Assembly (NCBI GenBank): GCA_963422465.1
Contig: OY730174.1
Coordinates: 186,001 to 250,000, forward strand
DNA length: 64,000 nucleotides
From: Lichina pygmaea
Lineage: Eukaryota; Ascomycota; Lichinomycetes; Lichinales; Lichinaceae
Reading direction: 5' to 3'
The position numbers and the translations under genes are program-made. Shown in pieces: positions 36,783 through 56,340 of the stretch. A model generated the notes under the pieces. It was not told the origin of the DNA and searched no databases. It was given only the letters and a program-made list of their open reading frames with translations. Numbering within the stretch: the stretch's first letter is position 1; the number at the start of each line of letters is the position of its first letter.

Positions 36783-38693
36783 CTACGTCCGTTGTCGCTT
36801 CTTCTCTGGTTTCTCCTCGGCGTCCTCGTCGCTCAGCTCCGCGTAGATCCTATGGATGAAGCGCCTCGTTAGCTTCCGGACCACGATACTGCGCCAGCTC
36901 ATCGCCCTCGGACTCACGTCTTTGGCTGAGTCTCCTTCCAGGCATTCGTAAACATCGGGTCCTTCTCTGCCTTCTCGGCGTACTTTAGCAGGGCCTCTCT
37001 TGGGTCCTCGTCGCGCATCGAGCTCAACGGAATGTGTTCCTTGATGTGCTTCTCATCCGGTTGGCTCTTGGCGAATGGGGTTTGCGCGGGGAGATGCGGT
37101 CGCCGGGGATCGCGCGAACGCCCCGAGGCGGTCATGCCGACAGTCGGATGTCGAGCTGCCCAGCTTGCGGAAGCCTGACCTGAACTCTTGAGCAGACCGT
37201 TAGGGTTGACAATACTGTCCCCCGAGAGACCAAGGGTCGTGTCGGTGGTGAGATTTGGGTCATCGTCAATGTGACGACGTTTCGGCGCCTTGACCATGAT
37301 CTGTACACCGCCTCGAGTTGATATGGCTGGATTGTAGAGCACATGCGTCTCCGCGTTTGCGGAGCCGGTGACGATCTGGTTGATCTTGTCATGCCAGACG
37401 GCAGTTATCAAGGCAGAGTCGGACGTGACCATCGTAACGTGCTCCGACTTCAGAGTTGCAGGATTGAGGATATGAAGATGCCCCGTCTGAGATCCAGTGA
37501 CAATGTAGGATGAATTCGGAGAGAAAGAGATGGTGGATGTCGGATGCTGGCTGGATGTGGATGTGTGAGATATGGTGGCAATAGGAGTCTTGAATTTACG
37601 AGTATCCCAGGCTAACTTGCGGTCAGACAAACTCACACGCCGTGTGGGTGGAGGGGATCCAACTTTTTATGGTGTCGTCGCCGCCTCGGGTGACGACAAG
37701 CCTTCCATCAGAGCTGATATCCAGGCCGCTGGTCCAAGTATCTCTCGCGTGGGCATCTCGTATCTCCCCGGAGGGCCGGGTGAAAGGTCCATTGCCGCTC
37801 CACATCGCCAAGCTCCCGTCCAGGGCCGCGCTTACCAGCACGTTGTTGCCGCCTTGTGCTGGGGAGCCCCAAGCCACGGCTGTCATCCTCGTTCGGCCTC
37901 CAGCACCCGGCAGCCGGGATTTATGGACGATGACCTCCTTCTGTGAGCGTTTGTTGTTGACGTCCCATATCCTTAGCGTGCTGTCCGTGCCAGCGGTGAC
38001 GCATAAATTCCGATCAACAGGGTTCCATGTGCCCGTGGTGACTTCTGACACATGTCCCTTGGTGTTGTGCAGGTCTCTGAGGTACATGTCTCCCTTGACA
38101 AATTCGGTGATGATATCTCCATCGCGGCTGAGGATCTTGGCTTGGGGAGTTGCAGATATCACAAGGAGATGCCCGGCCGAGACAGGGCTGAAGACAGCAC
38201 GGTGAATGGGATGGGTCTCCATGGCGGCCGAGCCTTTTGAGGCGGAAGGATCGACTGATCTGAATGCGCGAAGCGTGGTTGGGGTCATTGACGCAAGGTC
38301 ATGCAGCTTGATCGTGCAATCCGAGGAGCCGGTGACCAGGCGGGATCCAGACTGATCAAGTGTGATGCTCGTGATAGCTCGATCATGGGTTTTGAGTACA
38401 ACTTCATGAGATGTCGGGAACTCGTCTTCCTCCTCATCGTCACTGCTGTCACCATCATCACTTCCTCCTGCGTCATCGACTCCGAGCTTCGTATGCTCTG
38501 CATTATCGTGACCGTCCAGCGCTGTCTCTGAGCGTTTCTTGGCCGCCTCATCTTTGCTACCTCGATCCGGCAATCGCTGAGATTGCTTCAATCGCTTGGC
38601 AATGTCTGTAGTTGCGCTCTGTTTCCCAAAGGAGACGGGTAGAAAGCTCCGCAGCTCGTCATCGGACGTGTTCTGCTCCGAAATCTCGTCCAT
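36783..38693 (-). CDS. WD40-repeat protein, WDR70 family
   Basis: Exons 38693-37664, 37611-36918 and 36849-36783 give 596 residues. The first intron (52 nt) has an unusual GTTGGA donor but rebuilds GGDDTIK|TWDTRKFKTPI, the family sequence; the second is GTGAGT...TAG and adds IYAELSDEDAEEKPEKKRQR as the C-terminus. The N-terminal 110 residues are acidic. WD repeats begin at THDRAITSITLDQSGSRLVT. The block TRPSGEIRDAHARDTWTSGL, then DISSDGRLVVTRGGDDTIK, and the C-terminal DPREALLKYAEKAEKDPMFT are typical of WDR70 (gastrulation-defective 1 homologs). In fission yeast and humans WDR70 works with the CRL4 (Ddb1-Cul4) ubiquitin ligase in double-strand-break repair chromatin. The C-terminal Lys/Arg cluster is probably nuclear-localising. 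The role here is by homology. Confidence 0.9.
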
Positions 38694-40170
38694 GTCTTTT
38701 CGACTGAAGCTCTCAGTTGGAGATGTCTGATTATCGAGGCCTGTAATACGTGCTGTACGTACCTTCCTTAAGTAGGTATATACATACGTTACGCACTGTA
38801 GGTATGTACGAGTACGTCCATACTCCGTGCTCCGTACATACGTACGTATGTATGGAGTACGAAGCTCGTAGCTGGTGTACCGTACCGTACCGTACCGTAC
38901 GTACGTACTGGCATGATGTAAAACAAGTCGACAGAAGTCATATAAGACGTTACCGGTACGTCATTCTGAGCTGCACTCACACCTGAATATCATACAAGAT
39001 GTTCTTCTGTGGAAGTACTGTCGACGCTTTCCGACGTAGGAGCACGTATGTCGACGGAGGAGGGGTGTAACAGAAGCAGCTTCCCCCTGAGCCACGCTAA
39101 AAAGTCTTGGCGGCACGGGACTGCTCCTTCTCGTCGCTCGTTAGGAGCTTAGATACTGTAGATCAGACCAATACACGCTCATTCCCCGGCCAGACGCCGG
39201 TTGTCAACTTACAATAAGCGGCTCAACAAGGTCTTGTGCTGCTCTGCGGCCTCGCAGCGCCTCGTATCTCGTACGTACGGATGTAGCAGCAGCGCGCCAG
39301 CTGTCCCAGGTAAAGCCATTGAATTCTCTAGAGCTCGATATTCACAACCGTAGCGTGACGGAGGATAGTCTTATACAGCAGCCAATGAGTATAGATTCCG
39401 AAAGCGGAGGAGATACTTTTTTGGTAGAGATACTGTGCCATGGCTGCTAGACCGATTGATTGATACTAGTGGCAATGGCTCGCGAGTTGGTGGTACTACT
39501 CTACGTATGTACCGTACCAGTGAGATAGCAAAGTAGATAAGCTAGCTGGAGCTCTGCTTCGAAGGCTATCACAGCTGCTAGGACGGACATCAGGTTCGTG
39601 ACTGAGCTGACCCATTGGTTTCCGGCAGCCCTTACCGTAACAAAGTGCGTATCAATATCACCGTTGGTCTGCAAGCTCATGCTGGGCGGATCGGGTCTGA
39701 CGAGCTGTTTTTCGGCGTGTAATGCAAGCTAAGACATGTTGCCATGCTTCTCGTGCCTCTCCCTCACTTGGCATTGCGCCGTGAAGATTCCTCTGATGAG
39801 CCATTGTTAACCTCTGTGTGGTCTGAGGTAGCGTTGGAGTTCTGACATCAGCGATGGAGGGCTCGTGGGCGGAAGGTCAGAGGATGCAAAGAAGCCGTCC
39901 GCTTGGGCACAGCGTCGATCGAGTGGGTGGTCGCGATGGCGCCGTGCTAGGCCGTATGGGGAACGCAATAGCCCCCTGAGTTCCAGATCATCGGCGTCTT
40001 ACCGTCCCCCTTGTTCAGTCGACACCACTCATCCAGCTGAGCTTGGGTCGACCACTATTCGACAAAGTCAGCTCGCAACGACTAGAAAAAGGCCTTGAGT
40101 CATATCCTCGGCACATACCAGACGCTTGCTGGCAATGATCAGCTGTATGAGGGCTTGCCTGGTCTGCCCG
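38694..40170. other. Spacer with a strong GTAC island
   Basis: Positions 38745-38905 form one of the densest GTAC islands in the window, including gtaccgtaccgtaccgtaccg and gtacgtacgtatgtatgg. The rest holds no supported gene. Confidence 0.55.
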
Positions 40171-40612
40171 TCAGCATTTCAACTCCCCCGATGGTCGACA
40201 GTGTCGGAAAACGATCACCAACGTGAACATGAAAATAGCCATGACGAAGAATACTGTTGCCCATGCCAGACCCGAAAATATTCTGGGATGAGAGGATTCC
40301 AGACGAATTAACTGCACGTGAGCCGAGATCTCGACTGTAGCTCGCCGCCCACGAGGATGGCAGCGAGGGTACATAGAAGACCTGAAAGCCTGCCCGAAGT
40401 TGCACAGCGCTATAGCCGTGGTTAGCTCGCACGAACCAAGCGACGTCCTCCATCTCGTCTGGGGCCGACTTGACCGGACGGGAGAAAATACCGGCGATTA
40501 GATACAACAAGCCCCCAAAAAGCCTCCAATCTTCGCCTTCGAAGAGAGAGGTATGGACAGCTGCTTTCCACAGCCACTCCAACGTGCAGCTGATGACCTT
40601 GACAAGACCCAT
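40171..40612 (-). CDS. Hypothetical membrane protein, probably incomplete at its 5' side
   Basis: From the ATG at 40612, exon 40612-40373 encodes MGLVKVISCTLEWLWKA... and FGGLLYLIAGIFSRPV, ending GFQVFY. A 61-nt GTACCC...CAG intron leads to 40311-40171, which encodes LIRLESSHPRIFSGLAWATV and the strongly hydrophobic FFVMAIFMFTLVIVF before RHCRPSGELKC. The pieces give 126 residues with a C-terminal membrane span. An upstream frame at 40710-40590 (LTPLCGKLCEDIYSDCHLPQ, ASRFAAKDIGNDGSC) also looks coding and may be an earlier exon, but I could not find a splice that joins it. The family is unknown to me. A plus-strand frame at 40725-40991 overlaps the presumed 5' side. Confidence 0.4.
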
Positions 40613-41196
40613 CGTTGCCGATATCCTTCGCTGCGAAGCGCGATGCTTGAGGCAAGTGGCAGTCTGAGTAGATGTCCTCACAGAGTTTGCCGCATAGTGG
40701 TGTCAGCAAGACCTCCAGGTTTCAGTGAGGCCTGTGGCATGGACGACAGAAGCGTTGATAGAGGCTTATGCCGAGGCACCTTCCCTTCGTGATACTATGA
40801 CTGCTGAGATCGTTCGGCAAAGACTGTCCCGCGCTCGAGCTTGGAAACAGGGGGATTCGGGCTTTACCGACTTCTATCCGCGGATACAAAATCCGCGTGA
40901 CGAGCTTCAAGACGTAGAACTGGACATCAGGAGTGGGCGATTTTGTGATTTTTGCAGACGACCGAATGTCATCTTCCTCGTGCTACCGTAAGTAGAGGAG
41001 AGCAACAGAAACTCGACCTGAAATTTTTCAGGGCTTAACACTCAAGCCACACAATTGTCATTGCGAACGACACAGCTCAATGACAGGTCATTTCCAACAC
41101 GAGCTCAAGTACAATCGAAAATGACAAACGATGCTGGCAAACTCTTACAGAAGAGGTTCCCCGCGGGCCTCGGCTCCATGATGGTCCACAACGCTT

Positions 41197-42711
41197 TTAA
41201 ATCTCAAATGTCCGTACGGTGCTGACGTTCAGCTGGCTCCATGGCCTCCCATGCCGGATCGACATCAGGAACTTCCCCGGCCAATAGACGTGGTAGAGCC
41301 ACCACCAGGGCAACGGGTCCCAGACGGTGTACGTGCCTTCTTTCCAGAAGAGAAGATGGCGCATGACGACACTGAAATCGTGGAGCAGCTGTCTTGCTGG
41401 CACACGGCCGAGCAAGCAATCAAGAAGCGGAAGGCAGAAGGACGTGACCAGGTCGTGACCGGCCCAGAAGAACTTGAGCGACTCGTTCGGTGTCACAACG
41501 TGGGGCTCGTACCCGTTGACTGCCCCGTTCGGCGCACCGGGCGAAAGAGCAGCGAGATAGGCGTTCGACAATTCGACGCTGAGCCCGTCGAAAAGCAGGA
41601 CGGCAGTATGTGCGCGAGGGTTGCATTCGATCGGGTAGATCGTCGTCTCAACTCCCTTCGCACTCGGCAGTTCCCGCACCATAAAGTCCAAGGCCAGATG
41701 GCCGGTCATCTCGCCTTTGGATCTTGTTGCGAACTCCTGGTTGAACTCCAGCAGGGCCCTGTTGAGCGCGGAATCGGCAGGCAGGGCCTCGTAATGCATC
41801 AAGAGCTGGGTAGAAGGGCAGGCGACGAATGCCTTGACCTCGTTCCTGACCACCAGCGCATGAGAGCAGTACTCTTTGCCGCGGACAAATTCCTGCAAGA
41901 CCCAAGGGTTGGCTGGTGAAACGTCCAGGCTCGCGACGTACGAGTATGTCCGGCTCCTCGAGGAGTGCGGCAGAGCGGTCAGCTCGCCGCGTCGAGCGTT
42001 GTCTATGCCGTCGGGCTTGATGATGTATCTGCCGACGCGGGAATGATCCAAGATCTTGTGGATCGCCCCTCGAGAGGTGACCAGATGCGTCTCGGGCACG
42101 TTCAGCCCCAAGGAAGCAACGTAGCGGACGAACGAGTCCTTAGGATGTACTGTCTCGATCAGCCCCGCATCCAGCTGGACGACCTTGCACGAGGTACGTC
42201 GTTCGATCACTTCCTTTGCCTGCGCGTCTTCGAGCTCAGTCGACTGCCCGGCACAGCTGACCCAGAGGTCGATCCCCTCTCGCCTCACGATCGCGAGCAG
42301 GTCGCTGATGTAGGCAGAGGCGCCTGCGGTGCCGTCCGGAGCGCTGACGCGATAGAACTTCCGCAGCGCACACGAGACCCGTCCTCGGACCAGCACGCCG
42401 TCGGGTTCAAAGTCCGCTCCAATGACCTCGTGGCCCGCCTCGTAGAAGGTGCGGGCGAGAAACAGCCCCTTGTCCATTCCAACACCGGTCACCAGGATGG
42501 CCCGGGGACGGAACGTCGGCGACTGTCGGATCTGCCGCCGCGGCGACCTGTGCCGGAATCGACGCGCAACATAGCTGAGCAGCAGAATGCCAGTGTCCAA
42601 TGGCAGGAGAATCAGGCTCAACAGCAGTAGAGCTACATTCTTCAGGATGTGCGCCGTCTTCGGTGACCGCTGAAGCTGTGTCAATCTCTTTCCCGTCGGT
42701 AGGACAAGCAT
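41197..42711 (-). CDS. ATP-grasp ligase, mycosporine-synthase (MysC) type, membrane-anchored
   Basis: Single exon, 504 residues from the first ATG (42711); the frame opens 22 codons earlier only through TTG. Residues about 25-47 (NVALLLLSLILLPLDTGILL) form one hydrophobic span followed by RRFRHRSPRR, so the catalytic domain is probably tethered facing the cytosol. Then ILVTGVGMDKGLFLARTFYE and AGHEVIGADFEPDGV give the nucleotide-binding-like N-domain, with YIIKPDGIDNARRGEL, PWVLQEFVRGKEYCSHALV and TTIYPIECNPRAHTAVLLF covering the ATP-grasp Lys, acidic and Glu/Asn metal positions. The whole resembles fungal ATP-grasp enzymes of mycosporine clusters, which join an amino acid to 4-deoxygadusol. 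It is divergent from the GH127 gene, with 460 bp between starts, and lies 6 kb from the cyclase. The family is firm; the substrate is inferred from neighbours. Confidence 0.82.
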   Translation of the reverse strand: MLVLPTGKRLTQLQRSPKTAHILKNVALLLLSLILLPLDTGILLLSYVARRFRHRSPRRQIRQSPTFRPRAILVTGVGMDKGLFLARTFYEAGHEVIGADFEPDGVLVRGRVSCALRKFYRVSAPDGTAGASAYISDLLAIVRREGIDLWVSCAGQSTELEDAQAKEVIERRTSCKVVQLDAGLIETVHPKDSFVRYVASLGLNVPETHLVTSRGAIHKILDHSRVGRYIIKPDGIDNARRGELTALPHSSRSRTYSYVASLDVSPANPWVLQEFVRGKEYCSHALVVRNEVKAFVACPSTQLLMHYEALPADSALNRALLEFNQEFATRSKGEMTGHLALDFMVRELPSAKGVETTIYPIECNPRAHTAVLLFDGLSVELSNAYLAALSPGAPNGAVNGYEPHVVTPNESLKFFWAGHDLVTSFCLPLLDCLLGRVPARQLLHDFSVVMRHLLFWKEGTYTVWDPLPWWWLYHVYWPGKFLMSIRHGRPWSQLNVSTVRTFEI

Positions 42712-43171
42712 ACTCCGCGATCTGTCAAAGTGATGTTCTGAGCACAACCTGATCAGGGAAGCGACGTCGTGCTGCAAGCAAGATTGTGTCTGTCTTACAT
42801 GTCAAGACGGCGCTCACGGTAAGCAGTCGCCGATGAGAGATGCAAGCAAATCAAAGTCTTCGCGGTGATGCGTTCGGTACGGTAGCGCCAATCTTATGTT
42901 GACGTCACTCTCTTCCGTGTGGCATTCTAAACTTCGGCCTGCATGATGTTGCCGTGGTCAGCTCACGACCAAAATAAGAAGCTTTGGCAATGGATTGACT
43001 CTGGATTGTGATTGATTGAAGTTGGTGTAGATTAGATATTGCTATGGATAGCTAGTGCACCCCCTGACATGACCTCGTACCGATTGGCCTGTCATGAGTC
43101 AGTCCTCGCCGTCTGTCGTGTGACAGTTTCATGCTCGCCTCGTTTATGTGCACGGCGTCGTCGAGTTGCCG
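42712..43171. promoter_or_regulatory. Shared divergent promoter of the ATP-grasp and GH127 genes
   Basis: The 460 bp between the two start codons contain a perfect TGACGTCA palindrome at 42900-42907, the site for CREB/ATF-type bZIP factors such as fungal Atf1/AtfA. A ggtacggtagc word lies just upstream at 42877. No coding frame intervenes. Co-regulation of the two genes is inferred from the layout. Confidence 0.6.
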
Positions 43172-45410
43172 ATGATGGCTCGCAAGATTCTCCTGGCAGG
43201 GACGAGCTTCGGCGCCATCATGGCTGCAGCTTCGGGGGTAGCCGTCCATGATCGACGTGAGTTCCACGCGAGGAGAGAGGCCCTTGCATTGCTGTAACTG
43301 ACCGTGGCGCAGTGCTTCCGTACACTTTCGAGCCGCTGCCGCTTGGCTCCATCAAACCTATGGGATGGCTGCGCGACCAGCTGGGTTTGATGGCGAACGG
43401 CCTGCCCGGGCACGAGGCCGATTTCTACCGCTATGTGAAGGACAGCGTCTGGACCGGCGGCGGCAAGGATTACAGCGGCCTCCACGAAGCAGCCGCCTAC
43501 TGGTTCAACTACATTGTCCCGCTGGCGTACGGTCTGGACGATGCCCGCTTGAAGAACCAAGTCCGCCGGTTCGTCGACCATGTGCTCGACGGTCAAGCGG
43601 AGGACGGCTGGATCGGACCAGAGAGAACGGCTGCGACGCGGGATCTGTGGGCGAGGTTTCCTGTGATGCTTGGGTTGATGGTAGGAGTCTCATGCTGCTC
43701 GTGCATTGGCCTGCCGACTCTCTTGCTGATAGCTTTCGGTCACCTCTATAGCAACTTTGTGAAGCTGACGATGCTTACGCGGAGAGGGCGCTTCCTGCTA
43801 TGCACAGATTCATCAAACTGATGCACCATATGCTGGAGAACGGTGGCGAGGGATATGTCAGTTGGGGTCGGGCACGGAGCCACGACATGACGATCACGCT
43901 GCAGTGGCTCTATGAGAAGCATCCGATGAACAATGAGCCGGTGCTCCTCGATACCATGAGGCTTCTGACCGACGGCGCATTTGACTGGTCGTACTTCTTC
44001 AGCAAAGACGTCTTTCCCGTGGACGACCTTGACAGTATCCCTGACCTCGACCTTCCGTATGACTTTCAACATGTCGTGAACGTAGCCCAAGGTCAGTCGC
44101 CCTGGCCTCCTCCTCTGCCAGCTCGATGCGCCGACGCTCATCCGGGCTCCCGCCGTAGCTCTGAAGTCTGCCGCCGTCATCCGCCGCTTCACCCACAGCG
44201 AAGCCCTGCTGGAAACGGCGCGGAATGCGGTCAACTGGACTTTCCTGTATCACGGCAGTCCGGCTGGGGCCGTCATTGGCGACGAGCGCATCAGCGGGGT
44301 CAGTCCAAGGAGAGGGTGAGCTCCCGTGGTGAACTTTCACGCGCGTTCGAGAAGCTGAGCGGCTGTGTTCAGAGCGGAGCTCTGCGGCGTCGTGGAAGCG
44401 ATGCACTCGTTGAGCTACCTATACAAGGCCATCGGAGACAAGACCTTTGCCGACAGGTGCGAGTTGGCAGCGTTCAACGCCCTGCCGGCCATGATATCCC
44501 CCGACTGGTGGGCTCACCAGTACGTGTCGCAGGCAAACCAGGTGAGTTTGAGCTTTCGTCTTCGCCGTTGGGGCCCACGTTGACCGGTCTCGTGCCTAGC
44601 CGTTTTCTCGACCGCTACCGGAGTCGCCCTTCTTCAATGTCAACGGCCGAGGTCAGACGTTCGGGCTGGAGCCTCACTACGTAAGTTTTCCCCCGGCTCT
44701 GACGGCTCAACCCCCCTCTGGGCATGGCTCACCGCTACCCATTCAGCCCTGCTGTACGGTGAACCACCCACAAGGCTATCCCAAGTTTCTGTCGGCGGCG
44801 TACGTGAGGGTTGGTGGCAACGGCCTTGGCCACGCCTTGCTCGGGCCGAGCCAAGCCACCGTCAGTCTCGGCGAGAGGAAGTCTGTCAGCGTGCAATGCG
44901 AAACGAGTTATCCGTTTGAAAACCAGCTCTTGTATACGATCACGGCAGAAGAGCCGTTCGACTTCTTCGTCCGCGTCCCAGACTGGTGTGTCCCCGAGGC
45001 ATCCCACATCCGCATCAACGACGACGCTACGCAGCCGCTCAGTCCCGACGTAGCAACGGGCATGCACAAGATCGCCATTCCTGCGGGCAGGACCAGCGTC
45101 AGGTATGTCTTGGGAGCTCGCATCAGGGTAGTGCGCCGGGCGAACAAGGCCGTGTCGGTGTACCACGGCGCTCTTCTGTACGCGCTAGACGTCGGCATGG
45201 ACGTGCGGAGCGACGCTCCCCGGGCCTGGACCCAGCAGTATCTCTCGGACGACGAGGTCGTGCCGGAAGCGAAAGACTACGTCGTCACGAACACGACAGC
45301 GTGGGCCATCGCCATCGATCCCGCGACCTTGACTTTCCGTTCTGGGAGGTTACCTCGGTCTGACGCAGCCGCCGCCGCCGCAGTAGATCAGATCCATGTT
45401 TCTCCTCTGC

Positions 45411-45444
<34 letters not shown>

Positions 45445-45859
45445 GCAACCAGTGCCTTTAGACAATCCCGTCTTCACTCCAGGCGCCCCGCCAGGATCCA
45501 TCACCGTGCGCGCCTGCGAGGTCGAGTGGGATTGTCCCAAAGGCGTTCCTGCCGATCCGCCGTCTTTAACGGCCAGGGAATGCACGTCCGAGCCCTTTAC
45601 GGCGCGACTCATCCCTTACGGCGCCGCCAAGATCCACATGGCCGAATTGCCCACCGTGGACCTTTCTCATCTCCCGTCGTCCGTTCCTGGCGTGATCTTG
45701 GACACTGCATTCGACGCCGAGCGAGCTAGATTCACGCAACCTCAGCCCGAACGTCAAAAACACTTGCACCAGCATCAGCAGCAACAGCAGCTGCTGCTGC
45801 TGCAGGACCCGAACTGCAACCACGAGCACAAAACACAAGAGCAAAGCCTCGAGCTATGA
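43172..45859 (+). CDS. Secreted GH127 (DUF1680) glycoside hydrolase, beta-L-arabinofuranosidase-like
   Basis: Seven exons give 770 residues: 43172-43256, 43313-43680, 43752-44091, 44159-44315, 44373-44541, 44600-44680, 44747-45859. Exon 1 encodes a signal-peptide-like start (MMARKILLAGTSFGAIMAAA...). Family motifs follow: FEPLPLGSIKPMGWLRDQL, HEAAAYWFNYIVPLAYGL, FQHVVNVAQALKSAAVIRRF (across the fourth junction), GDERISGVSPRRGAELCGVV, EAMHSLSYLYKAIGDKTFA, DRCELAAFNALPAMISPDWW and PHYPCCTVNHPQGYPKF. The Zn ligands and nucleophile of HypBA1-type enzymes (Glu and Cys in AELC, both Cys in PCC) are present, so it should be active. The C-terminal part has a run of about ten Asp and a Gln/Leu-rich tail. 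Enzymes of this family remove L-arabinofuranose or related sugars; the substrate here is unknown. It sits inside the mycosporine-type cluster. Confidence 0.87.
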
Positions 45860-47137
45860 ACAACCAAACACAAACATCCAAGGACCGAATACTGCAAGCC
45901 CCAGATGAAATTGACAGATAAGCAGGTAAGATAGCCAGATGAAATACTGTAGCCAGATAAAACCAGGAGCAATGAGAATGTACCAGTTCAAGTAACCCCG
46001 CGACACGTGATCCCCAAGCGATCCACCTGCACACTACGTTACGTACCTCCATATACTGCCTGGAAGGACTTGGTACATACGACTAAGAACATCTCAGGAG
46101 ATTTTCCCTCTTGAAGCTGACCCATTGCTGGTCTCGAAGCATCGAGATCTAGTTAATCAATGGTAATTATACGTATAGATTGTAGCTCCGTAGGGAGCTT
46201 CTTACATGCCTCCGTCCATGTGGGCATAAGTGGCTGTCTCTGCCATCCAAGCGACTGACTACTGCCATACTCCGTATGCGATCTTTGACTACTGTTGCTT
46301 TACGAGGGGGGGACAGGTGCGATCTACGTTCCGTACTAACGTACTAATTAACGTACGGTAATCCCCAAGCAGCCACCGCCCTGACAGGGTAGTTCCTGCA
46401 ACTTGACATTTCTTCTGCAGTTCATCTGGGCTTTGGATCGGCTCTGGCCTGGCTATCACCGGCCACCTTCCTTGTTCTACAACACTTTGGCAGGAGGCCG
46501 CCCAAGCAGAGGCCTCTGGCGCTGGTCACCTGAGCTGGAGGTTTTCCCTACCAGTTTTACGGCTATCACAGTATAATGTACGGAGTGTAGCCTAGCTACT
46601 TAGCTTTAGAACACGGTGGGAACTCAATACAATACAGTACTGGTATCGTAATGACATAGGTTCTCTTTGGCCATGAGCTCCGTTCCATATTCGAGATTTG
46701 ACGTTCGAGGCTCGAAATTCGATGTTCGATGCTCGACGTTCGGTGTTCGAGGTTTCACTTCGAGGTCGAGGTCGAGGTCAAGATCGGATGTCAGACTGCC
46801 GTACCTTTATGTCTTCGCTCGCCCTCGCACTTGCAAAAGCCCTGTTTGGTTGTTGTTGTTGGGTAGTCAAGGTTCGGATCTGTGGATCATTCGGCTCATA
46901 CAAAGGAGAGGAACGGAGGAAGTGAAAGAACGAGGGAGAGAGATCAGATGGTCAAGTCAACTTTCGTTTATATCATCGGCTGCCCTTTTATTGGCTGCCT
47001 TTCAAAGCCGCCTCGCAGGGCTGCCCACGGCTGCTTCTCCCGTACGGCATGAATAAGATAACACTGAGAGAAGGAAAACTCTATTCTCGCTGTCAATCGA
47101 TCCTCCTCTTCTTTCGGATGACCACCGTTGCTCTCGG
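45860..47137. other. Convergent spacer inside the cluster
   Basis: Between the stops of the GH127 and cyclase genes. It holds GTAC-rich words (46030-46045, 46328-46360) and a degenerate array of ttcgatg/ctcgacg/cgaggtcgaggtc words at 46690-46785. No gene is supported. Confidence 0.55.
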
Positions 47138-48898
47138 CTATGCGGCCACCCCGTTCGTATGGCCGTTCGCGTTGATGCCGTTCACAACATCGTTCTCCTC
47201 GTTGGTCCCGTTGGCCCTGTTGGTCCCGTTGGCCCCGTTGGCCCCGTTGGCCCCATTGGTCCCGTTCACGCCGTCGATTTTATGACCGCTGGGTATCGTG
47301 CTGGAGATGCTCGCTCCCTTGATGGCCGACTTGGCACCGTTGAGCGTCGCCTGACTCATGCCCGAGCCAGCGCCGTTCGCCTCACCGGCTTTGTCGGCGG
47401 CGATCTTCGTCGCCACGGTCTCGGTGATGTTGTTCTCGGTGTAGCCGGTGTCGCTTGCGTCGACGTACGCCTCGAGACCCTCTCCGTTGCGAGGGTACTC
47501 CTTCATCAGGGCCTTGTGTCGACGCAGGGCGGCGTTCATCTCTCCCTCGCTGACGTCGTTGAGGAAGACGCATTTGCCGAGGGGGTTGGGCACGGCGGCC
47601 CGCAGCAAGCCGTCCCGCGTCTTGAGGATGGCCGCGGTGGCCTTCTTGAGGAGATCCTCGTCGAACTGATGGTGGTCCATCGAGAGCCCCGCGCGGGAGA
47701 AGAGCTTCAGGAGCCGTCGGTGCTCGTCGTCGCTGATCAGGCCGCGATCGTTGGCCAGCGTGGCCGAGTAAGCCATGTCGATGGAGATGGCATGACCGTG
47801 TCGGAGCGGCGTCTCCGGAACCAGCTCGTGCAGGGGAGACCATCTGAGGTGGCGTCAGCCGCCGGATCAGGGGAAAGAGGATGGAAGACGAGGGAGAAGA
47901 GGTCGCACGTATGGCCGTAAGCGATGATTCGGTCGAGGCCTATCTCGTGGAGATTGGGCGTCTCGAGTCTCAACATCTCGTGTATGCCATCCCTGTTGAT
48001 CGAGTCGGCCGCTCGTCGCACCTTGTCCGAAGCACCGTCTGCGCGTCCGAACTTGGACTCGATCAGGTCCTCGCAGTACTTGTCGAGGAGGTCGAACGTG
48101 CCCAGATGGGCGCAGGACGAGATCTTGATCAGCTCGGCAAAGCCGTTTCGGACCTGGGCGATGGGCAGCGTCCGCAGGAAGGTAAAGTCGAGAAAGGTGT
48201 GCAGGGGCGCGTGGTAGGCCCCAAGCCGGTTCTTGTAGTTGCCGTAGTTCACCGCGACCTTGATCGAGACCGACGCATCAATGAGCCCGATCACCGTGGT
48301 CGGCACCCGGATGTAGTTGGAACTTCGCCGATACGCCGCACATGCGAATCTGACGGCCCCCCTTGAGATTAGCCACATCGCGGCGCAAGTTGTCCAGGAA
48401 CGGGCGGATCGGGGCGTCTTGACGGCTGTCGTCGGCAAGCGCATGCGGAGCGAGCTTTTACCCAGCAACGTCGGTCACCAAGCCACCTCCGACCACCAGC
48501 ACAGGTTCCTAGCGCTGGTCAGTTTCCCACGCCGCAGGCCGACGTCAACTGCTGGGCGAAGCCCATACTTTGCGGATGATCCCAAATTCGGTCATCGAGT
48601 CGACGATGCTCAGGAAGGTCGGGATCGTCTTGGCCTTCTCTCCGATCTTGGTCTTGTGGATCTTCAACTCCAGCCCGTGGTGGCCAAAGTACCTCTCCAT
48701 CCGGCCTCCGTAGAGCTGGTACACGTTGAGGTCCATCACGGCCAGAACCCGTCCCCATCTCTGGTAGCAGTCCGCGAGCTGCTTGTTCTCGACGTCGAAG
48801 ACGCCGTCAAGGAAGGAGAAATCGTAGGTGATCTTCTCGTAGCCCTCGACATGGAAGCCGTTGGTGGTCTCCTCGACCGTGGCCTTCAGGTCCGACAT
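47138..48898 (-). CDS. Sugar-phosphate cyclase, 2-demethyl-4-deoxygadusol synthase (MysA/DDGS) type
   Basis: Exons 48898-48569, 48508-48462, 48349-47909 and 47843-47138 give 507 residues; the three introns (60, 112, 65 nt) are GT-AG and rebuild [13 protein letters not shown]..., [11 protein letters not shown] and YGHT|WSPLHEL. It belongs to the dehydroquinate-synthase superfamily: NAD-binding [34 protein letters not shown] (residues 160-179), [18 protein letters not shown]. The three metal ligands are visible (Glu198 in GFAEL, His272 in YGHT, His288 in LRHGH). The KNRLGAYHA and [12 protein letters not shown] wording fits DDGS better than dehydroquinate or valiolone synthases. It would convert sedoheptulose 7-phosphate to demethyl-4-deoxygadusol. 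The last 60 residues are a low-complexity NGT/NGA tail. Position near methyltransferase and ATP-grasp genes supports the call. A 2-epi-5-epi-valiolone synthase is the main alternative. Confidence 0.86.
47185..47270. repeat. NG-repeat-coding tandem array in the 3' end of the cyclase gene
   Basis: On the plus strand, units of the type gttggcccc / gttggtccc repeat about eight times. On the coding strand they encode NGT and NGA triplets near the C-terminus. The period of nine keeps the frame. Confidence 0.85.
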
Positions 48899-51129
48899 CT
48901 TGCCTGACCGGTAGAGAGCGTAGCAGGAGGCGCGAGAGCAGCGACAGGGGAGCGGACACGGACACAGGGCACAGGGCACAGGGCACAGGGAACGACGGGC
49001 TTTGGATCTCGACGACGGGAGCCGACATCGGCAGCCGGGGAGCGTCATGCCTCATATACCACGACGCGCGACCCCACTCGGAGGGGCACAAACCCCCTCG
49101 CGGCGTCGGACGCAACGCACATGGACGTGCCTCGACCGGCCCCGGCAGATATTGACCCTCCGCATCGGGGAGAGCGGAGACGGACCATGCCGTCGTCGCC
49201 GTGGGACTGCCGCGACTCGTCGGCTCAGGCAAAGCCATCTTGTTCCACCTTCGGCATCCGTGCCACCCCTGGTGGGGCCAAGTCCGCCAAGGCCGACGAC
49301 GCGGGCGGAAGACTAGATCTTGCAGATGTGCGCCGGCATGCAACAGATCTCCGGAGCTAGGGCGGCAGACATGTCAAAGGCCCGATATGGATCGTATTGC
49401 AACACCCGAGGACGCTGCAGGATGGCATTCCTGCAGCTGTTCGAGCACGTCAGGACTCGGACGATGACGGAACCACCGCAGACGGCGCGGCAAGCTAGCA
49501 CCCCTCCGGCATCAAGAGCCCATTGGTCGGAACGGAAAAGGTCGATCTTGTACGGCTGTACAAGGTACTGTCAGACCTCTCCTGATGAGATCTCGGGTAG
49601 CTCTAGATCGTGCCTTGCGTGAATATGCTTCTGGACCGGCTGCGGCTAGAGAAGGAGGCGAGCAGCCTAAGCGCAGATGGGTTCGTACGCTCGGAGGTCG
49701 AAGCTTGGTCTGTAAAAAGCAGGCCTGAGCGTTCACCTGGTACTGTTCATGACGATGACGTTCAACTGACAGTTGAATGTTCCACAGCAAAGTTCGACTC
49801 GGAACTTCAGCTCAGGCAACTCAAAGGCGAGAGGTCAAGATGCTTCTCATGCCCGTGGCTGCTCGACGTAGATCCTCGAGTTCGTGATAACAAGACATGC
49901 GGTGCAACAAGCGCCTCCAGCTAATCGAGATCCCAAGTCCATGCAAGGGAAACAGACTGATCATGGTGCGGCAAGCCGAGGCCAATCTTCTACTCCGTAC
50001 GATGATCGGCGAGCAAAAATGACGGAAAGATCTTCGGTACGAGGCGAACAGAACGCCTCGGCAGATCTTTTTGATAAGCTTAAACAAGGCTAGCCGTCCG
50101 AGTACCGAGTGAAGTGGAGGCAGAGGTATCTTGCACCGAAGATCTTTCTGGCATGTCTGGCCTGGCTTGGCCTGACCGGGCATTGATGTCATCAGCCTGC
50201 ATCTGCTGGCGCGCTGGCTGGGCGAACGGCGGAGAGAGTCTGCTTAATTTAGACCGCAACCACCGAGAAGCCCCCACGTAGGTATGAGGCGGTACATAGG
50301 TACGATGGACTGCTGGGTAGAAGACCTAGACGTACGTACGTACGGAAGTACGTAGGCGGTGCCTTTGTGTTGTTAGGCTTTCGTGCTAGGCGTGCTAGGC
50401 GTGCTAGGCGTGCTAGGTGTGCTAGGGTACCCTGCGAGCCGTGGAAATTGCCGCACCGGAACGAGAGTCGTCATACGTCAGCCACTTATGCAAGGTCGAC
50501 CTTGGTGTCACCCCGTGCACCTCACCATGCCCCACCAGTTTTACCCCGCTTCGACGCAGAATCCCGAGGCACCCGAGTTCTGCCCCATCAAGAGCATGAC
50601 GTGACAGGCACAAGCATCTTGCACGTGATCAAAGACCCAGATGGTCACCTCGGACAGTTTTTTACATCGAGTTGAGAAGAATCTTGAGGAGTCTTGTCCT
50701 GGATGGCTATTTGGCGAATTTTGGATGTCGTTGCTGTTGGCCTGTTGCCAGTGGTCATCATTTCATTAGTCCTTGACCGTGGACCCGGGTCACCGGGTGA
50801 GATTTTCCTCTCGGAACTTCTTTTATAGTCGAGAGCTAGATGTCCAGGCAACCGGTGGGGGTCCGTTGGAGACGTTCGTAATTGATCGCAGCGACCGGCC
50901 AAGCATTTCTGTGCATGGCACTCTGATCACTCTCCCCTAAAGTGAAAGTATGCGTAGGCCTCTGAAGCCTGCTGAAAAGCCTGCTGAAGCGCCTGCTCGC
51001 GACAGATGCAGGCGTGCTGGGCAGGACTGGATGCCTGGACGTCATGGACGAACCAGACCTCCCGGGCTGAGTTCATGACCATTCAACGAGTGGACGGCAT
51101 CGTCCTCGCGAACGATACACCACAGCAAC
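48899..51129. other. 2.2-kb divergent gap between cyclase and methyltransferase genes
   Basis: No gene is supported, though several 60-100-codon frames are open. Features seen: a ggcacagggcacagggcacagg array (48960-48992), a five-unit 9-bp array (50382-50426) and a GTAC patch (50330-50355). GACGTCA, seven of eight bases of the bZIP palindrome, occurs at 51038-51044, about 90 bp before the methyltransferase ATG. A small unrecognised or decayed gene in this gap cannot be excluded. Confidence 0.5.
50382..50426. repeat. 9-bp tandem repeat, five units
   Basis: Five near-perfect copies of gtgctaggc follow each other (the fourth unit has t in place of c). No coding context. Confidence 0.9.
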
Positions 51130-52081
51130 ATGGCCGAATTCGATCAGAGCAAGGTGTACGTGCAGCGGGACGACAAGAGCTACGTAAGTACAGACTCGCT
51201 GCCTGTGGTTCCATCTCCTGTTATCGTCGAGGCTGACATGTCGCCGTGGTGGCTCTACGCAGTTCGACGACGGACGGGAGCAGGAGCTCCTGCGGTTCAT
51301 CTACAGCCACCCGTCACTAGAGAGCCTTCGTGGCTCGCCTTCCAAGATCCTGAGTGTCATTGACGAGTATGGCCGGAGCAAGGCGTTCTTGATGAACGTC
51401 GGCGAGCACAAGGGCAAGGTCGTGACCGACCTGATCGGCGAGATCAAGCCCAAGGTCATGGTCGAGTTGGGAGGCTACGTCGGATACTCGGCCTTGCTGT
51501 TCGGGGACGCGGTGCGCAGGGCCGGCGGCAAGCAGTACCTGAGCCTGGAGCGGGACCCTCTCTTCGCGGCCGTCATCACGTCCCTCGTCGACCTGGCCGG
51601 CCTCAGAGACGTCGTCCAGGTCGTGGTCGGCTCCAGCGGGGAGTCCCTCAGGCGGCTACACCGGGAAGGGACGCTGCGGCGGATCGATCTCATGTTCTTG
51701 GATCACTACAAGCCCGCCTACACACAGGACCTGAAGCTCTGCGAGGAGCTGGGCCTCGTCGGACCAGGCTCCGTGCTGGCGGCCGACAACGTGGTCCTTC
51801 CGGGCAACCCACCGTACCTGGAGTACGTCCGGAGCAGCGTCGACGAGAAGCGGCGGCGGCTCGGAGACGGCTCGCGCACCGGTGCGTCCACCGAGCACTT
51901 TCCCGAGCAGGCGAGGAAACAGTACGAGAAGCGCCATGGCCCCGCCGCGGTCGACGCCGAGGCCAACGGCAACCCGAACCTCGTGTACGAGAGCGAGCTG
52001 GTGGAGAGCTTTGAGCCCACGGGCCACAAGGACGGCGTCGAGGTCTCTCGATGCGTGGGCGAGGAGAAGCCAAAGCAGTAG
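51130..52081 (+). CDS. COMT-type O-methyltransferase, mycosporine MysB type
   Basis: Exons 51130-51183 and 51263-52081, joined across a 79-nt GTAAGT...CAG intron, give 290 residues starting MAEFDQSKVYVQRDDKSY, then FDDGREQELLRFIY. The family pattern is clear: FLMNVGEHKGKVVTDLI, the SAM-binding motif VELGGYVGYSALLFG near residue 84, the Glu in LSLERDPLF, LMFLDHYKPAY near 164 (metal Asp and catalytic Lys as in catechol O-methyltransferase), and LAADNVVLPGNPPYLEYV near 193 (second Asp-Asn pair). All metal and catalytic residues are kept, so it should be active and Mg2+-dependent. With the cyclase next door it would methylate demethyl-4-deoxygadusol to 4-deoxygadusol. The substrate is inferred from context; on sequence alone it could be a general catechol methyltransferase. 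Confidence 0.85.
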
Positions 52082-52422: not shown

Positions 52423-53067
52423 TCACTTGCTGCTGCCGCCGCCGCCGCCGCCGGCCTTCTCCCTTCGGTCGATGAGGGACTCAATCTCCTTCATGAGGCC
52501 GGCGAGGTCCGGTTCGTGGCCCTCGAACTCGAGGGCGCGGCCGACCCAGTCCCTGGCCTCGTCGAGCCGGCCCATCTCGAGGAGACAGCGACCGCGGCGC
52601 CACCAGCCCTTGGCGTTGCCGACGCGCTTCATCTCGACGCTGGTGCCGGCGTCGACCATGGCGTCGGCCCAGGCCTGCATGGCCATGTGGGCCTGGGCGC
52701 GGTTGGCGTAGAGGGCGGCGACCTCGTCGCGCACGAGACCGGCCGGCTCCCACGGCGGCCGGCCCAGGGCCATCTCGAGCCCGAACGTGTACATCCGGAT
52801 CGCGTCGCCGTAGGCGCCCTTGCGGAAGCTCGCGTTGCCCGACTCGCGCAGCTTGTTGATCTGCGCGCTGCGCTTCGGGTTCACCGGCACCGGCGGCGGC
52901 GGCGCCCCGCCGTCCAGCCCGACCACGGCCCGGTGCAGCTGGTTCAGCGCCGCCAGCTCCTCCTGGACCCCGGCCTCGTGCACGTCGCTCTGGATCGTCT
53001 TGCTGCTCGGGTCCATCCGCAGTGGGAGCTGGGTGAACGTCTCTTCCATGGTCGCGGCGCCGGGCAT
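52423..53067 (-). CDS. Sec72-like TPR subunit of the Sec62/Sec63 translocation complex
   Basis: A single exon of 214 residues from ATG 53067; a second in-frame ATG at 53049 starts the conserved MEETFTQLPLRMDP and may be the real one. Fungal Sec72 landmarks run through it: GGAPPPPVPVNPKRSAQINK, LRESGNASFRKGAYGDAIRM, GRPPWEPAGLVRDEVAALYA, NRAQAHMAMQAWADAMVDAG and GNAKGWWRRGRCLLEMGRLD. These form TPR helices. The end is Gly/Ser-rich. In yeast, Sec72 is a cytosol-facing partner of Sec63/Sec71 that helps post-translational import into the endoplasmic reticulum and can bind Hsp70 tails. It lies beyond the methyltransferase in convergent orientation and marks the right flank of the mycosporine-type cluster. 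Confidence 0.88.
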   Translation of the reverse strand: MPGAATMEETFTQLPLRMDPSSKTIQSDVHEAGVQEELAALNQLHRAVVGLDGGAPPPPVPVNPKRSAQINKLRESGNASFRKGAYGDAIRMYTFGLEMALGRPPWEPAGLVRDEVAALYANRAQAHMAMQAWADAMVDAGTSVEMKRVGNAKGWWRRGRCLLEMGRLDEARDWVGRALEFEGHEPDLAGLMKEIESLIDRREKAGGGGGGSSK

Positions 53068-53378
53068 GTCGATGTCTGCAGATGGATGCGTATGGCAACG
53101 GCCGCTCGTCCGCACGATGTAGATGCAGTACCGTACTGTTTCCGATATGCTGTAGTTGGGTGTATAGTACAGTTATACGGAGGGACTCTGTCCGTTCGAT
53201 CCATTTACGTATCAGCCAAAGAAGAGACTACCGTAGATGAAAACGCAACCCTTCCTCTCCGTAATGCTCCCCCTTCCAGAAGGAAACGTACCGGGTAGCC
53301 CTCTAATCAGCCTCTCGTCAAACCCCGGTCAGACTCCAGATCTTCAACTCTTAGCAAAAGTAGTGGCGGCGGGAAGCT

Positions 53379-53458
<80 letters not shown>

Positions 53459-54701: not shown

Positions 54702-56340
54702 TCAACCTCGTCCGAACTGGAACCCGCTGAACACACCGCTGCCGACACCGACCCCACCGACCCCACCGACCCCAGAAGGCGTCAGGCCGCCCACACCGGT
54801 CCCCCGGTTCTGGCCGTGAGATCCGGGGGTGTTGGCGAGGCCGACGTGGTCCGTGTTCGGCGTCGTGGTCGCGTTCCCGTTGTTCGAGTACATGGCCGCG
54901 CCGCCGTTGTTCGTCGAGTGGTTCTGGTGCTGGGCGGCGGCGGCGGCGGCGGCGACGGCGGCCGCCGCCGCAGCAACCGCCGCCGGAGCCGGAGCCCCGA
55001 CCCAGTCCAGCCCCCAGATCTGACCGAGGTACTTGTCGTCGTCGATGTGACCGCCAAAGACCACGCGCCGCACCTCCCAGAAGATCTTCCCCGTCACGAG
55101 CGAGTCCGAGCCGGCCTGGTGCTGGTTGCCGACGCGCTTGACGTTCAGCTCGTCCGCGATCGCCTGCAGCCCCGACTGTTGGCCGAGGTTGGCGATGACC
55201 TGGTGCGCCTGCGGCGTGAGGGGCGAGTTGTTGACCGTCTGCGTGCCGCTGGCGTGCTTCATCAGGTACTTGATGTCGTAGATGCTGGGGAAGAAGATGT
55301 TCATGACCTTCCGGAACTCCCGCTCGTCGTCCGGGAGCGGCTTGCACAGCATGATCTTCATCAGGTATCCAAAGTCGTAGCCCGAGTGGAACGAGATCCA
55401 CCGGACGTCCTCCGTGAGCACTAGGCCTGACGTGATCAGGCACGATCCGAACTCGAGTGGGTCGATGCCGTTCTTGTCGTGCAGCTGGAAGTCGAGTCCG
55501 GACTTCTGCAGCAGGTCGATCGACGCCTGAGCGTACATGTCCGTCTCGAGCGAGAAGCGGAAGTTGAACTGCCACGTGCATGGGTATGGCATGAGGTTGT
55601 TGGGGTAGCTGGATCCATTCACGCCCGACGACTCGGCCGGATGCGGTGGAGGAAGCTCTCCGTCCAGCGTGAACAGCGTGACGCCGAGCTGGATGATCTT
55701 CAAGAGATCGACGTTACATCGAAGACATTGGTAGTGGTAGTCGGCCTTGGTCGTGAAGGTGCCCATCGGTCTTGCTACTATGCCAGGGAACTCGGTGTCC
55801 TGCACGCGTTTCAGCACATCGAGTTCGCGCACGCGTCCGGAACGCGGTCCCGAAAAACATCTGGACATCTCCGAACTCCAAACTCACCATGCTCACAAAC
55901 GGATATTTATCTATGAGCGATCTGATCACCGTCATCTCCTGCGCGAGGTTGTTGCGCCACACGTCCCGTATCCGGCCTTTGGACATGCCCTTCCAGTCGG
56001 CCTGGTTGGTCCCGTTGCTCTCCTGCAGCTCTTGCCGCTGGAGAGCAGCGCCGTGGGCAAAGCCCGCCTGGGCAGCTTGACCGCCCAGGCCGGCTCCGTC
56101 GCCGCCGATGCCGGCGAACCCGTTACCGTACTGGTTGTGCGCGTGGGCCCCGTTCGAGCCGAAGAGGTTGAGGTTTGGTTCTGCGTTGCCGAATCCTAGC
56201 TGTGCACCGACCGACGGCGTCACCAGGCTGGCCGACCCGAGGCCTTGGCTGGGATGTTGTAGATGGCGCTGCTGCGGGTTGCCAAACTGCGCCATGCTGG
56301 GCTGACCGCCCTGAAACCTTCCCAGTATTGGCGGCACCAT
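54702..56340 (-). CDS. CCR4-NOT deadenylase subunit CAF1/POP2
   Basis: Exons 56340-55888 and 55799-54702 give 516 residues. The 88-nt GTGAGT...CAG intron splits just before the first catalytic motif: KYPFVSM|DTEFPGIVARP. The DEDD nuclease residues are all visible: Asp and Glu in DTEFPG, Asp in FHSGYDFGYLMKI, Asp in FFPSIYDIKYLMKH, and the GNQHQAGSDSLVTGKIFWEV block. WKGMSKGRIRDVWRNNLAQE is the usual start of the CAF1 domain. The N-terminal 100 residues are Gly/Gln/Asn-rich and the C-terminal 110 hold Ala runs, then Gly/Val/Asn-rich sequence. The protein shortens mRNA poly(A) tails in the cytoplasm with CCR4 and NOT1. It is divergent from NDUFB3, with 404 bp between the starts. Confidence 0.94.

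Follow-up and report, generated by a model that had tools for sequence, protein, structure and literature searches.

A probable fungal mycosporine biosynthesis cluster with a COMT-type methyltransferase and a GH127-like neighbour

The locus at positions 41197-52081 of the DNA analysed here, a 64-kb stretch referred to as the window, is very likely a fungal mycosporine biosynthesis cluster with a mycosporine as its product. It comprises four complete genes, none of them with a stop codon breaking its frame, and three of these, encoding a 2-desmethyl-4-deoxygadusol synthase (DDGS), an O-methyltransferase (OMT), and an ATP-grasp ligase (ATPG), are linked and intact in the manner expected of such a cluster (Table 1). 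The initial annotation had proposed both the four genes and a role in mycosporine synthesis; the gene models recover all four uninterrupted, and the proposed role is supported by the branch and motifs of the cyclase, by the MysC-type ligase, and by a divergent DDGS/OMT arrangement like that of Phaffia rhodozyma. Chance resemblance is ruled out by tblastn searches of the window, in which Nostoc MysA and Nostoc MysC gave E values of 8e-123 and 7e-50, respectively. The core is very likely a working cluster of an ordinary, known kind, and its unusual points are a catechol O-methyltransferase (COMT)-type enzyme in place of MysB, which has been little noticed, and a GH127-like neighbour. Introns and gene content point to a fungal origin of the window. 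Exon borders were predicted from frame, splice sites, and similarity alone, and every intron in the final OMT, DDGS, and GH127-like models has GT...AG borders. Being compact and intact and having clear gene models, the cluster is suited to expression in yeast.

Table 1. Genes and intergenic regions at the locus and on its flanks (window coordinates).
Feature	Position	Strand	Description
WD40-repeat gene	36914-38960		Pfam assignment
ATPG	42711-41197	-	ATP-grasp ligase, MysC-like; 504 aa, 1 exon, N-terminal membrane helix
Intergenic region	42712-43171		460 bp; ATPG and the GH127-like gene diverge from it (gene models)
GH127-like hydrolase	43172-45859	+	770 aa, putative signal peptide; 7 exons: 43172-43256, 43313-43680, 43752-44091, 44159-44315, 44373-44541, 44600-44680, 44747-45859
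DDGS	48898-47138	-	2-desmethyl-4-deoxygadusol synthase (MysA/DDGS); 507 aa; 4 exons: 48898-48569, 48508-48462, 48349-47909, 47843-47138
Intergenic region	48899-51129		2231 bp, between the head-to-head DDGS and OMT genes (gene models)
OMT	51130-52081	+	COMT-type O-methyltransferase; 290 aa; exons 51130-51183, 51263-52081
TPR-repeat gene	52423-53172		Pfam assignment
CAF1/CNOT7-type deadenylase	54702-55883		Next after the TPR-repeat gene

Substrates, product, and expression of the cluster are read from established pathway knowledge, according to which DDGS would cyclise sedoheptulose 7-phosphate to 2-desmethyl-4-deoxygadusol. The COMT-type OMT, replacing bacterial MysB, would then methylate an enediol oxygen to give 4-deoxygadusol, to which the membrane-anchored ATPG would attach either an amino acid or an amino alcohol at the expense of ATP. 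The product would be an oxo-mycosporine absorbing near 310 nm. The GH127-like enzyme lies outside this core scheme and is taken as a neighbour with an unproven role. Unlike the window, Nostoc sp. HK-01 carries a D-Ala-D-Ala-ligase-like gene near its cluster, which we take to be MysD; with this gene as the query, the best tblastn match within the 64-kb window had an E value of 0.11, leaving no MysD counterpart there, and therefore an oxo-mycosporine is expected rather than a di-substituted imino-MAA.

The closest known system is the MYC cluster of Phaffia rhodozyma, in which, according to the available part of the 2023 report, DDGS, OMT, and ATPG were proven by gene deletion and yeast expression to yield mycosporine-glutaminol, and which its authors describe as the first fungal mycosporine cluster with a function shown (PMC10057719). 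In the same text, the same three activities reside on proteins of 477, 284, and 500 aa (DDGS, OMT, and ATPG) as compared with 507, 290, and 504 aa in the window, and DDGS and OMT are likewise arranged head to head, separated by 1568 bp (IGR1) in Phaffia and 2231 bp in the window. The two clusters differ in that ATPG lies on the far side of OMT in Phaffia but on the far side of DDGS in the window, where the GH127-like gene is interposed, and in exon number, which is 14, 7, and 6 in Phaffia but 4, 2, and 1 in the window. The six query accessions of the Phaffia paper were met in no other paper in a literature search. Queries of that paper include the ATP-grasp and DHQS-like entries EDU45308 and EDU45310 of Pyrenophora tritici-repentis and EAT88778 and EAT88781 of Parastagonospora nodorum; should such numbers track gene order, a single gene would separate the pair in the former species and two genes in the latter. 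In the parts of the texts available, mycosporine-like clusters of the Hypoxylaceae are treated as NRPS-like and have another layout (PMC8403587), and a paper on interkingdom transfer in Pyrenophora does not show these cluster genes (PMC3612039).

For comparison with bacterial mysABC clusters (Cyanobacteria and Actinobacteria; e.g., Nostoc sp. HK-01, L001), bacterial genome contigs were scanned with a two-row cyclase alignment, yielding 115 relatives, 80 of which were analysed; an earlier contig scan with the single window cyclase as query had given 28 pattern matches and no relatives. Neighbouring genes were scored as ORFs of at least 150 aa at loci where many contigs end close by, and on this basis MysC-like genes were found at 70 of the 80 MysA loci and MysB-like genes at 77. 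No DDGS relatives were found in IMG/VR. The window resembles the bacterial clusters in its cyclase and ligase, the latter with the same membrane segment, but its genes are not co-directional and its methyltransferase is of the COMT type rather than the CCoAOMT type of MysB.

The cyclase is 52-57% identical to MysA at all 80 bacterial loci, the spliced protein reaching 55% over 404 residues with MysA of Nostoc sp. HK-01; its identity to two sedoheptulose cyclases that serve other pathways is only 35.5% and 36.3%. A plasmid search likewise returned the Nostoc HK-01 plasmid as the best match (55%), the next among the matches listed being at most 36%. A first tree was built from the window cyclase, 22 of the 80 MysA rows, four sedoheptulose cyclases other than MysA, and three rows of DHQ type; in it, the window protein and MysA formed a single branch with 100/100 support, and the same branch received 100/100 again in a second tree built with a simpler model and with the two longest rows omitted. 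Approximately unbiased (AU) tests rejected a union with the three DHQ-type rows (p 0.00038). Joining the window cyclase to the other sedoheptulose cyclases was not significantly worse (p 0.22 with four rows and 0.062 with three), long branches being present, which counts against the mycosporine assignment, and because the AU test does not reject this grouping the motifs were inspected as well. PNLHE is present in the window cyclase and in 79 of the 80 bacterial MysA proteins, and GHTWSP in the window cyclase and in 78, whereas the corresponding motifs in three of the four sedoheptulose cyclases outside MysA read PNLW and GHTFSP; HGHA, found in the window cyclase but in only 61 of the 80 MysA proteins (HGEA in 5), is less telling. 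Phaffia DDGS carries NLHE and GHTWSP in the stretch behind its DDGS call, as given in the available text (PMC10057719). The DDGS-type assignment of the initial annotation is thus supported, the cyclase grouping in the trees with MysA and not with the DHQ-type rows or the other sedoheptulose cyclases. That it is instead a valiolone-type or dehydroquinate synthase, the locus making some other C7-cyclitol or a shikimate-type compound, draws on the two non-significant AU values but is highly improbable given the MysA branch, both motifs, the rejection of the DHQ-type rows, and a MysC-type ligase close by.

Within the first tree, MysA of Nocardiaceae (L083, L079, and L082; 91/94) stands as the sister of the window cyclase, a hint at an actinobacterial source that long branches make unsure. 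The C-terminal tail of DDGS, ending the gene at 47138-47450, runs for about 100 residues past the alignment with bacterial MysA, and a 9/18-bp tandem repeat at 47200-47266 codes for part of this tail as Asn-Gly-Ala/Thr repeats.

The ligase is more distant from its bacterial counterparts. ATPG is 27.8% identical over 439 aa to MysC of Nostoc HK-01 (E 3e-53) and 26-33% identical to the MysC-like genes of the bacterial loci, and of the 109 columns strongly conserved among the latter it keeps 56 and differs at 53, a divergence that weighs against the mycosporine assignment. Among 72,556 plasmid records searched by tblastn, 11 matched ATPG, the best being Nostoc HK-01 MysC (E 5e-43, the next 4e-21), which belongs to the same cluster as the MysA of that plasmid. 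No Pfam model matched ATPG, and NCBIfam gave one uncharacterised family, below its cut-off. Residues K232, D342, E362, and N364, which we take to have the roles usual for ATP-grasp residues, are kept in ATPG and are invariant in the alignment. An AF2 model built from 35 rows (pLDDT 86.4, pTM 0.89) was compared with PDB folds, and the best 50 of 369 matches (E <=0.001) are by title enzymes that presumably all belong to the ATP-grasp superfamily, L-amino acid ligases among them. The membrane anchor proposed by the initial annotation is present as well: all 68 MysC-like ORFs longer than 400 aa from the bacterial loci have an N-terminal hydrophobic segment, defined as a 19-residue stretch within the first 90 residues with a mean hydropathy above 1.6 (lowest value 1.605; window ATPG 2.42), and membrane anchoring is therefore an ordinary feature of the MysC family.

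The methyltransferase departs from the bacterial scheme. Searched against PDB chains, OMT matched COMT1 of Schizosaccharomyces pombe (5zy5) with an E value of 8e-43 and other COMTs with 9e-39 to 4e-34, and the non-COMT O-methyltransferases among its 40 matches scored 1e-13 or weaker. Nostoc MysB showed the reverse pattern, with CCoAOMT-type chains reaching 4e-35 and those COMTs at 9e-9 or weaker (60 of its 72 matches). Chain 2avd, deposited as a catechol-O-methyltransferase and presumably a CCoAOMT-like COMT-domain protein, matches Nostoc MysB at 2e-28 and is absent from the 40 matches of OMT. In a tree of 15 of the 77 MysB rows, six PDB fragments, and the window protein, OMT grouped with two COMT fragments with 100/100 support, its sister being S. 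pombe COMT1, to which it is 41% identical over 188 columns; we know of no role of the latter in mycosporine synthesis. OMT was also considered as a MysB orthologue, and a topology joining it to MysB was rejected (p-AU 3.5e-12). It retains LDHYK at position 164 and ADN at position 192, motifs that we take to serve metal and SAM binding. The initial annotation had credited the locus with the key residues of MysA, MysB, and MysC. Searches against these proteins and the sedoheptulose cyclases bear this out for MysA, with its cyclase motifs, and for MysC, with its ATP-grasp residues; the COMT type named for the methyltransferase stands too, its motifs being those of COMTs, but its equation with MysB falls, the MysB sequences fetched being of the CCoAOMT type.

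By its sequence relationships, then, the gene used for the putative methylation step is a different one from bacterial MysB, and its product probably performs the same step. A COMT-type enzyme could have other substrates, which counts against the mycosporine assignment; on established pathway knowledge OMT would act on desmethyl-deoxygadusol, whose enediol is catechol-like and makes the chemistry plausible. COMT-type methyltransferases may be general in fungal mycosporine clusters. InterPro entry IPR002935 is, as we understand it, a broad one. The COMT name, which appears alongside this entry in the available text of one of two Naganishia papers, may therefore reflect the entry alone. In the portions available, both papers count a catechol O-methyltransferase as one of the mycosporine genes, and one of them, citing Phaffia, lists 'catechol o-methyltransferase' among those 'reported in Phaffia rhodozyma' (PMC8875396). 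As the family differs from that of MysB, it can be tested which fungal enzyme families took over the methylation step.

The fourth gene encodes a protein of the GH127 type, as the initial annotation had it. PF07944 matches with an E value of 7e-8 (bit score 32.2, the cut-off being 24.9), the Pfam model of the middle domain falling just under its own cut-off, and the protein aligns with one from Hymenobacter at 32% identity over 688 aa. It matches six plasmid records at 26-32% identity, and its sequence similarity to solved GH127-type chains is marginal (E values of 0.27 and 0.54). The zinc-cysteine site is intact as E319-x-C321 and C402-C403, aligned with four bacterial members from plasmids (27-32%), and Glu307 is a candidate acid/base. 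In the available text of PMC10850190, a Glu-x-Cys plus Cys-Cys site is described for clan GH-P, that of Bll3HypBA1 comprising E723, C725, C804, and C805; the distance from Glu to the Cys pair is 83 in the window protein and 81 in Bll3HypBA1. Domain and site are shared with the GH127/GH146 zinc-cysteine beta-L-arabinofuranosidases, from which the window protein is set apart by an extended C-terminus bearing runs of Asp and of Gln/His. The hydrophobic N-terminus, a putative signal peptide, suggests secretion, in keeping with the earlier call. The Asp run stems from an 11-copy trinucleotide repeat at 45411-45443, and the C-terminal tail rich in Gln and His (45760-45850) is an addition relative to the four bacterial members aligned. 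In IMG/VR, a search for the Cys-Cys motif of the fungal GH127 protein, written as a single exact degenerate pattern, gave no match.

This gene is probably an unrelated bystander, a hydrolase of plant cell-wall arabinosides placed here by rearrangement. Characterised GH127/146 enzymes cleave plant beta-L-arabinofuranosides (PMC10850190) and a fungal GH127 transcript was strongly raised on wheat straw (PMC6757388), both as described in the parts of these papers available, and the putative signal peptide fits such a function; its location within the set rather than beside it, and its divergent pairing with ATPG, argue the other way. Membership as a working part of the cluster, in which the enzyme would remove or transfer a pentose or similar sugar on a glycosylated mycosporine outside the cell or, alternatively, set mycosporine free from the extracellular spore matrix, is unlikely. 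In its favour are the position between ATPG and DDGS, the 460-bp divergent region held in common with ATPG, and the unbroken zinc-cysteine site, but the gene is otherwise linked by position alone, its apparently secreted product contrasts with a pathway that operates inside the cell, GH127 occurs at none of the 80 bacterial MysA loci (ORFs of at least 150 aa, many contigs short), and the Phaffia cluster as described in the available text has three genes and no hydrolase (PMC10057719). GH127 genes are scarce in fungi: a table in PMC3460790 shows them for 4 of 12 genomes, and the comparison fungi of PMC6757388 apparently have 0.4 per genome, as far as the available portions go. Rarity is an argument made in hindsight, however, since an unusual gene of any kind at this place would have drawn comment.

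The two divergent intergenic regions share more short words than letter shuffles do on average (8-mers, 46 against 31.8; 9-mers, 16 against 7.8), which would favour membership, but longer words show little (10-mers, 4 against 1.85; 12-mers, 0 against 0.125), and as the shuffles ignored dinucleotides the common words are not counted as co-regulation. The CRE-like motif TGACGT occurs six times in these regions against 1.5 expected (Poisson p 0.004), an excess not relied on because it was one of four motifs tried; one TGACGTCA lies at 42900, between ATPG and the GH127-like gene. A literature search found no paper covering both mycosporine and GH127, and the membership claimed by the initial annotation thus keeps the support of position and gains none from the bacterial loci or the literature. 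One review, in its available part, brings up mycosporine and arabinofuranosidase. A wider scenario, in which fungi combined a bacterial-type cyclase and ligase with a home-grown COMT and a secreted zinc-cysteine glycosidase, processing glycosylated mycosporine extracellularly, was then recruited in this lineage, is doubtful; we know of no hydrolase so far connected with mycosporine metabolism, and such a glycosidase would be the first. It can likewise be tested whether mycosporine clusters include glycosidases.

Beyond the cluster, no glucosyltransferase was found among the selected window ORFs run through Pfam. On the flanks, the same analysis bears out the WD40 and TPR repeats behind the initial names WDR70 and Sec72, names that the repeats alone do not establish. 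Just past ATPG on the minus strand, a 187-aa open frame without a Pfam match (40139-40702) may belong to a small gene with introns or have arisen by chance. On the 5' side of the TPR-repeat gene lies a perfect GA dinucleotide repeat of 38.5 copies (53381-53457).
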